32,263 nucleotides of DNA from Acidobacteriota bacterium (GTDB taxonomy: Bacteria; Acidobacteriota; Terriglobia; Terriglobales; Acidobacteriaceae), in assembly GCA_003225535.1 (NCBI GenBank), contig QIAL01000217.1:1-32263 (forward strand). The letters run 5' to 3'. This document shows positions 18,294 to 20,849 of the stretch, piece by piece. The notes beneath the pieces were generated by a model that searched no databases, had not been told where the DNA came from, and saw only the letters and a list, made by a program, of their open reading frames with translations. The first letter of the stretch is position 1. Each line of letters starts with the position of its first letter. The position numbers were made by a program, and so were the translations under genes.

Positions 18294-18812
18294 TCACTTC
18301 CTTCGCCGAGCCGCCTGCGCCAACCCATTGGCCTCGGCGTTTTCCTCCCGCCGCACGTGCGAAATGGAGAACGCCAGCGAGCGCGCCAGCTTCCGGCAGG
18401 TCCAGTGCAGAGAGTAGAGGCGGGGACTGCGGCAGACGTACTCTCCGGTCATCTGCCTCACCACAACTTCGGAATCGGAATAAACGTGGAGCTTCTGGGC
18501 CTTGCGCTCCACCGCGTACTGCAGAGCTTCCATCAAAGCGGCGTACTCGGCAACATTATTGTCCTGGCGCCCAATCCACTTCGCGATCCGGACGGGACCT
18601 TCCGCCAGACCGCTGATTACTACGCCAATGCCCGCCGGACCCGGATTTCCCAGGCATCCGCCGTCCACATAGGCCACCAGTTCTGACGTCACTTCGATTT
18701 TTCCAAGTCTACTCAGCACTGTGCCCTCATCAATCCTCACCGTCAAGGCTATTATTTGGTTCCCTTTCAGCGTTTTGCAGTTGCTCTTTTCACTGTGAAT
18801 TCTTCTGTGCAA
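18294..18812 (-). CDS. Ribonuclease HI-like protein (exact start uncertain; GTG 18692 possible)
   Basis: LVAYVDGGCLGNPGPAGIGVVISG...NNVAEYAALMEALQYAVERKAQKLHVYSDSEVVVRQMTGEY...VRREENAEANGLAQAA. Confidence 0.88.
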   Translation of the reverse strand: MHRRIHSEKSNCKTLKGNQIIALTVRIDEGTVLSRLGKIEVTSELVAYVDGGCLGNPGPAGIGVVISGLAEGPVRIAKWIGRQDNNVAEYAALMEALQYAVERKAQKLHVYSDSEVVVRQMTGEYVCRSPRLYSLHWTCRKLARSLAFSISHVRREENAEANGLAQAARRRK

Positions 18813-18918
18813 AAGGCGTACCAGAAAAAATCACATGGGACTAAGTTTTTCCATTACAACCATTTGCATTTTCGATTATGCACAGCGCAAGCCGTCGCTA
18901 TTGCACCAATAGTTTGCG

Positions 18919-18946
18919 TTGACTTTTCTAGTTACTCTGGTAACTT
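18919..18946 (+). promoter_or_regulatory. Putative sigma70-type promoter
   Basis: TTGACT (18919-18924), 16-bp spacer, TAACTT (18941-18946). Confidence 0.45.
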
Positions 18947-18952
18947 TGCCTA

Positions 18953-19210
18953 CGTCGACGGTCGAAAGGGTGGGCACAATAAAATGAGCCGGCCCGAAGT
19001 AGACTGAGTGATTAGCCGGGCGGGGCGACCCGCAAGGCGACCGGACCTGAAAAAACCGACGGATCTGCGAGGTTCAGTTGGGGTTCGGAACTGCGAAAGC
19101 AGTGATCGCATCAAGGGGCTGTGACGGTACATGCTTCCACGCTGTGGGCTCCCTCGCAGGAGCTAGCGGCTAGGGCATAACCAATGTCACGGCCCTTTCA
19201 ATTTTTTTCC
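18953..19210 (+). ncRNA. Candidate structured non-coding RNA, family not identified
   Basis: GAAAGGG (18964-18970) pairs with CCCTTTC (19193-19199), followed by AATTTTTTT; GNRA hairpins GCGGG-GCGA-CCCGC (19020-19033) and CTGC-GAAA-GCAG (19091-19102); GCTCC-CTCGCA-GGAGC (19148-19163); no credible CDS. Confidence 0.45.
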
Positions 19211-19474: not shown

Positions 19475-20849
19475 GTGAAGCCCACATTGCTGCTGTTCTT
19501 GATAGCAGGGAGTATCCTGCTCGGCCTCGCAGCGCAGTCACCTACCCAACCGCCCGAAGCGGCGACCGGATTCGACGATCAGAGCAACGGATTTTCCGAT
19601 CCTGTTCGTCGTCTTGCCGACCAGAAATTTTTCGAGGAAGTTGAGCACATCGTCCCCGACGGACTAGGCCCGCTCTACAACGCCCAGTCCTGCCGCGAGT
19701 GTCATCAGACTCCGGTCACCGGAGCCGCCAGCCAAGTGAGGAGCGGAGATCGTCAAGGATCGGAACCTGGTGAATGACCGCGCCATCTGCCCCGAGATTC
19801 AGGAACGTGTACCTGAAACCGAGACCGTGCGCACCACCCGCCTCACTACCAACACCCTCGGCGACGGATATGTGGAAGCTATTCCCGACGAAACCCTGCT
19901 CAAGATTCGCAAGGATCAATGCAAAGCGTCGCGCGGAAAGATTTGCGGGCAGGCGATCAAGGTGCTCGTACCCGAGAGTGAAGGAGCCGATCGGATCGGC
20001 CGATTTGGATGGAAAGATCAGCACGCCAGTTTGCTGGCATTTGCCGCTGATGCTTACCTGAACGAGATGGGAATCACGAGCCGCCTTCAGCCAAACGAAG
20101 TGACGACAGCATGCAATCCTACGGTGACAACGATCATTCCGAACACCGACCCCACAAAGATCACTGAACCCAATAGCCTGCCCGATCCCACTGACAACAA
20201 TCTGGAAGACATCGACCACTTCGCTAGTTTCATGCGCTCGCTCAAGGCGCCAGCCCGAGACACAGCGACGACGACACCTGAAGTCATGCAGGGCGAGCAA
20301 CTCTTCACGAAGATCGGCTGCGCCAGTTGCCACGTGGAAACCATCGTCACGGGCAAGAGTCCGGCGGCCCCCGGTGGACCGGGATTGCATCCCGACGCGC
20401 TCGAGAACCGGACGATTCATCCTTACAGCGACTTTCTCTTACACAACGTGGGAACGGGAGACGGAATCTCAATCGCCTTGATCGAACATTTCGGCCGCGA
20501 GCGAGTCCACAGGCGGATGCGCGAACTGGAAGGAGCGCGGCCAGGGACGCAGCAGCCCACCAAAGGAAAACCCGAGGACGAATGCAGCGAGAGCTACCAG
20601 ACGGCGATGCTTGAAGGAGAAAAGCATCCCGACCTGTTGCGTGACACTCTTTGCGCGCGCAACAAGATCAGAACCGCCCCGTTGTGGGGACTTCGCGTGC
20701 GCTCGCGTCTGATGCACGATGGCGCGTCTGTCGAATTGAGCGAAGCCATCCGCCGTCATCAGGGCGAGGCGGAGGAAGTAACAGAGCGCTTCGTCAAGCT
20801 GAAGCCCGCAGAGAAGAAGGCACTGCTGGCGTTTCTGCAATCGCTTTGA
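19475..20849 (+). pseudogene. Di-heme cytochrome c / thiol-oxidoreductase-like (DUF1111-type) gene split by frameshift or deletion
   Basis: ORF 19475-19777 has signal peptide and CRECH; ORF 19770-20849 in another frame continues NDRAICPEIQERV...GRFGWKDQHASLLAFAADAYLNEMGITS...GCASCH...APLWGLRVRSRLMHDG. Confidence 0.75.

Follow-up and report, generated by a model that had tools for sequence, protein, structure and literature searches.

A conserved structured RNA without a match in Rfam 15 lies beside a second RNase HI gene in one family of Acidobacteriota

What is encoded by a stretch of about 250 nt that adjoins an RNase HI-like gene on the acidobacterial contig QIAL01000217.1 (positions 1 to 32,263; this whole stretch of 32,263 nt is called the window hereafter)? 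An earlier note, made from the letters alone, had suggested a structured RNA not described before. Large structured RNAs that are conserved but lack a known function are few, and for most of these no protein partner is evident. The reading that I favour, with a probability of roughly 60%, is that of a trans-acting structured RNA whose protein partner would be the neighbouring RNase HI homologue, named RNH2 here.

A protein-coding reading was rejected for either strand: net length differences between copies of the region amount to 1, 2, 4 bases and so on, not to multiples of three, and no frame is conserved among 154 copies (one antisense frame is open in 67 of the 154 copies, but it is not kept). 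Searching Rfam 15 with the window and ten diverse RNA copies returned no known family, and only chance matches were obtained in Rfam with permissive thresholds or for the most divergent branch of the RNA. This negative result does not cover Soil-1 and Solibacter-1, which have no Rfam number in Table 1 of the paper that describes them (PMC2864571). An identity as 6S RNA was rejected, as there is no match and a separate 6S gene (RF00013) scores above the cut-off elsewhere in 34 of 61 relatives. No paper was found that connects RNase HI with a structured RNA in Acidobacteria, most subscription journals being outside the scope of that search. Taken with homologues in many genera and the strong covariation described below, this leaves hardly any doubt that the RNA is real and uncatalogued, as the earlier note had suspected.

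The gene was placed on the forward strand at 18952..19207, with ends inferred from promoter spacing and the terminator; the expected RNA of about 255 nt would thus run from ~18952 to a T-run finishing near 19207. The promoter-like pair that had been pointed out before is indeed present, as a sigma-70-type -35 box TTGACT (18919..18924) and -10 box TAACTT (18941..18946) on the same strand with 16 nt between them, and TTGAC stands at the correct distance in 76/76 copies linked to RNH2 and in 34/42 of the others. A conserved forward-strand upstream element, TTGCAC (18901..18906), 12 nt 5' of the -35 box, and a -10 box of the form T-A....T are common to the linked and most of the orphan copies, and the promoter is kept in copies with differing flanks. 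TTGCAC-N12-TTGAC was also considered as a general promoter class and rejected: it was found six times in the window's own genome and six times in the reversed control, and this lack of enrichment indicates a promoter particular to the RNA gene. At the 3' end lies an intrinsic terminator, in which the base of the 3' arm doubles as the terminator stem and is followed by AATTTTTTT. Promoter and terminator are both conserved and suggest an independent unit; with sequence as the only evidence and no RNA-seq, a free-standing gene and its transcription are inferred.

The predicted RNA starts with the self-complementary CGTCGACG (18953..18960, forward strand), the core of which remains self-complementary in 153/154 copies and occurs in a compensated form, CATCGATG, in L146 and L102. 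This element (compare L102, L103, and L146) could serve in RNA dimerisation or, at the start site, as a DNA operator. Separately, a CRP-like TGTGA-N6-TCACA site was seen upstream of the RNA in the divergent copies L102 and L103 of genus g50 (at about 1450-1475).

Folding the single sequence gave a minimum free energy (MFE) with z = -5.6, which none of 200 shuffles matched, and RNAalifold on 57, 36, and 154 copies returned essentially one fold, with a multi-branch domain and a long 3' arm, to which a loop-loop contact is added (all on the forward strand). Helix P1 (18959-18963/19002-19006) encloses hairpin P2 (18968-18975/18988-18995), together occupying 18959..19006, while P3 (19008-19013/19104-19109, spanning 19008..19109) closes a multiloop of three hairpins: P4 (19015..19038) with a GNRA-type loop GCGA at 19025-19028, P5 (19041..19088) with an invariant A-rich bulge GAAAAAA at 19049-19055 and an apical loop engaged in the kissing contact, and P6 (19091..19102) with a GAAA loop at 19095-19098. 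The 3' arm P7/P7b/P8 follows at 19115..19196. All these helices are supported by covariation, P5 resting on the consensus fold and covariation like the rest, and the hairpins first spotted by eye (GCGGG-GCGA-CCCGC, CTGC-GAAA-GCAG, and GCTCC/GGAGC) all fall within this structure. Genus g50, the most divergent branch of the RNA, retains the overall architecture.

The structure was then set against covariation measured without it, by counting parsimony substitutions on a tree of 154 unique copies and ranking 16,071 testable column pairs by their same-branch changes. The 15 top-ranked pairs were all predicted base pairs, 12 of them also present in the MFE structure of the window itself, and nine column pairs passed an FDR of 0.05. 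In the 36-copy alignment, two-sided changes occurred at 40 of 85 pairs, 97.4% of cells were paired compared with 31-44% when slid, and 0/500 shuffles reached any of five covariation measures. The criterion for a large structured bacterial ncRNA, a conserved fold with compensatory changes, is met, and for this predicted fold I regard the covariation as decisive.

The TGCGA/TCGCA long-range pair of the earlier note turned out to be a real loop-loop contact between TGCGAG (19066..19071) and CTCGCA (19153..19158), with all six pairs kept in 146/154 copies and both sides changed in L107 (TGCAAG/CTTGTA, a double compensatory change); as the contact is otherwise nearly invariant, its support rests on few changes. 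The terminal complementarity GAAAGGG/CCCTTTC fared only partly as described, since the letters are there but do not form a closing stem: GGG belongs to P2, CCC pairs with GGGG at 19115 to close the 3' arm, and such a helix was rejected because conservation of its outer GAAA/UUUC pairs is poor (68% at one pair).

By blastn, the RNA was found in 46 of 101 relatives, often in at least two copies per genome. A search of 398 genomes of the order with a covariance model derived from 36 copies gave 109 positive genomes, with 1-5 copies each, and the RNA-positive genera (35 of 81) all belong to the window's own Acidobacteriota family; so do all eight positive genomes in an even sample of 396 from the phylum. 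Named records among the matches listed are Candidatus Sulfotelmatobacter and other Terriglobia/Acidobacteriaceae MAGs. The single exception is a MAG labelled Verrucomicrobia (L210) with an internally deleted copy, which may be a misbinned contig. Searches for the RNA in phage and plasmid collections were negative.

RNH2 lies on the reverse strand at 18294..18692 (132 aa from a GTG start), divergent from the RNA, and the divergent upstream gene is an RNase HI homologue in 107/154 RNA copies. Two RNase HI paralogues occur in the order, RNH2 and a housekeeping copy with about 40-50% identity that is present in nearly all genomes; the neighbour once called RNase HI-like is thus an RNase HI homologue distinct from the housekeeping enzyme. 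Among the 398 genomes, 102 contain both RNA and RNH2, 287 neither, seven the RNA only, and two RNH2 only. In the last two (G015 and G354) the RNA is in fact present but truncated where the contig stops, while the RNA-only genomes comprise three of genus g50, with its divergent RNA, and four more without an RNH2 match. At the level of genes, 111/113 RNH2 copies have an RNA copy no more than 1.5 kb away (100 near listed RNA matches and 11 of 12 others that were checked, G433 retaining only an RNA fragment).

Fisher's test on this table is extreme but ignores shared ancestry, and the independent evidence for the pairing comes from its persistence while the surroundings change and from the recurrent loss and duplication of both genes together. 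Linked copies were found in 31 genera; setting aside shadow frames of RNH2, every other gene family within 3 kb of them was confined to at most three of these genera. At least two RNA-RNH2 pairs are present in seven genomes, and neither RNA nor RNH2 occurs in G031, G028, G029, and G010, four genomes of the window's genus. The linkage is an observation, from which binding of RNA and protein can only be inferred; adjacent genes can be gained and lost jointly without acting jointly, which counts against a partnership, and I regard RNH2 as the probable rather than the established dedicated partner of the RNA.

The protein itself is a bare RNase HI domain of 132 residues (PF13456, PF00075) with an AlphaFold pLDDT of 93.7, and Foldseek matched it to the RNases HI of Halobacterium, Rv2228c, LC11, and S. 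tokodaii, so that on all three counts it has the RNase H fold. It is alike in fold and sequence to the type 1 RNases H of Sulfolobus tokodaii, Halobacterium, and Rv2228c, for which I know of no RNA gene partner. Its active site differs: the aligned solved relatives retain the fourth Asp of the DEDD tetrad, whereas RNH2 reads D-E-D-N, the last residue being Asn in about 100 of the 104 linked proteins that could be read (98 by pattern and two more by eye; the exceptions are one His and three Asp). Housekeeping paralogues have Asp at this position in 20/20 cases. Counted from the alignment, the Asn corresponds to Asp125 of S. tokodaii RNase HI, mutation of which strongly reduced cleavage of dsRNA but not ordinary RNase H activity (PMC9719913). 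By this analogy RNH2 may bind its structured RNA and leave it intact, which is a hypothesis and not a result. The substitution need not mean altered function, since E. coli RNase HI altered at Asp134 can still be activated by Mn2+, going by the title of a work cited in PMC9719913.

According to the favoured reading, the locus would yield a stably folded ncRNA running from its own promoter to its own terminator, which very probably acts in trans, and RNH2 would be its dedicated partner, most likely binding the folded RNA to form an RNA-protein particle. The Asn would spare double-stranded parts of the RNA, other RNase H activity may persist, and RNA copies at further sites in a genome would supply the same RNH2. 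It is a tentative possibility, not a likely one, that this is a new class of RNA-protein particle, in which a large structured RNA carries or directs an RNase HI-fold protein altered so as to leave duplex RNA uncut; this RNA may dimerise through its 5' palindrome.

The RNA may instead work alone as a regulator or scaffold, as is thought for raiA/ModT, with RNH2 a hitch-hiker in the same small cassette, which I consider rather unlikely but not to be dismissed. Orphan copies (42 of the 118 with known context are not beside RNH2) retain promoter and fold, the g50 genomes keep their divergent RNA though they have no RNH2, and on the RNA tree orphan copies are scattered among linked ones with at least nine forced changes, from which it follows that the transcription unit moved or was separated repeatedly. 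However, RNH2 is present in nearly every RNA-positive genome, its linkage survives in 31 genera though all other flanks change, and the linked paralogue has a derived active site that has become fixed. An improbable alternative is a toxin-antitoxin or phage-defence pair, with the RNH2 nuclease restrained by the structured RNA as in type III systems. A two-gene module that is jointly gained, lost, and duplicated and a nuclease fold would suit it, but RNH2 has no PADLOC match, the genes are divergent instead of operonic, there is no repeat array, lone RNA copies are common, and nothing shows toxicity. A cis-regulatory leader (riboswitch or attenuator) of a downstream gene is very improbable: the RNA ends in a terminator and some orphans directly precede a Fis-family gene in the same orientation, but among linked copies each downstream family is limited to three genera or fewer, so the conserved downstream gene expected of a leader is missing, and about 270 bp separate terminator and next ORF in the window. 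Least probable of all is that the RNA carries the guide for a nuclease of the OMEGA/IscB/TnpB-like kind, with RNH2 in the role of nuclease, because, although a structured RNA does adjoin an RNase H fold, the copies are conserved and paired throughout without the hypervariable guide segment expected of OMEGA/HEARO RNAs, RNH2 is only a bare domain, and HEARO/omega RNA was unmatched in Rfam.

Compared with known systems, the RNA paired with RNH2 resembles the raiA motif RNA (ModT) of Bacillota and Actinomycetota in being free-standing by its signals, strongly structured, found in many genera, and trans-acting by inference (PMC11706538); it differs in phylum, in its lack of an Rfam match, in being multi-copy, and in its tie to an RNase HI paralogue. 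OLE, ROOL, and GOLLD are large ornate bacterial ncRNAs that owe stability to kissing loops and A-minor contacts, and OLE forms dimers (PMC12286853). The RNA described here likewise has a kissing loop, together with an A-rich bulge and a 5' palindrome through which it could dimerise, but no sequence match to them and no evidence of assembly. It is also shorter than these three. Acido-1 (RF01686) and Acido-Lenti-1 (RF01687) are earlier structured RNA candidates from Acidobacteria (PMC2864571), both of them Rfam families that it does not match. What emerges is a previously uncatalogued RNA gene and its linkage to an apparently dedicated RNase HI paralogue, a combination that suggests joint working; the linkage lay beyond the reach of the earlier note. 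An almost one-to-one co-occurrence and a fixed active-site change offer a concrete partner candidate, make the unknown function of the RNA approachable as an RNA-protein question that can be tested in a soil lineage of high abundance, and suggest that proteins of RNA particles can be recruited from among RNase HI paralogues.

Several minor observations concern the surroundings of the RNA. The supposed cytochrome gene downstream in the window (19475-20849) is instead di-haem oxidoreductase-like (PF06537) and split over two frames, reflecting a frameshift, decay, or an assembly error. Orphan copies L044, L099, L110, L143, L150, L151, L161, L164, L166, and L168 adjoin a small Fis-family HTH_8 protein, a neighbour seen in nine genera. 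Clean internal deletions in L055, L062, L210, L224, and L258 possibly mark decaying duplicates. Contigs often terminate within the RNA (L358, L360, L361, L363, L364, and L057), as is expected where a multi-copy repeat breaks assemblies. In a contig from a viral collection (L300:381-5487), the RNA gene apparently harbours a phage-like element: this copy is interrupted close to its 3' end, next to a serine recombinase and to ORFs resembling a terminase and a methyltransferase.
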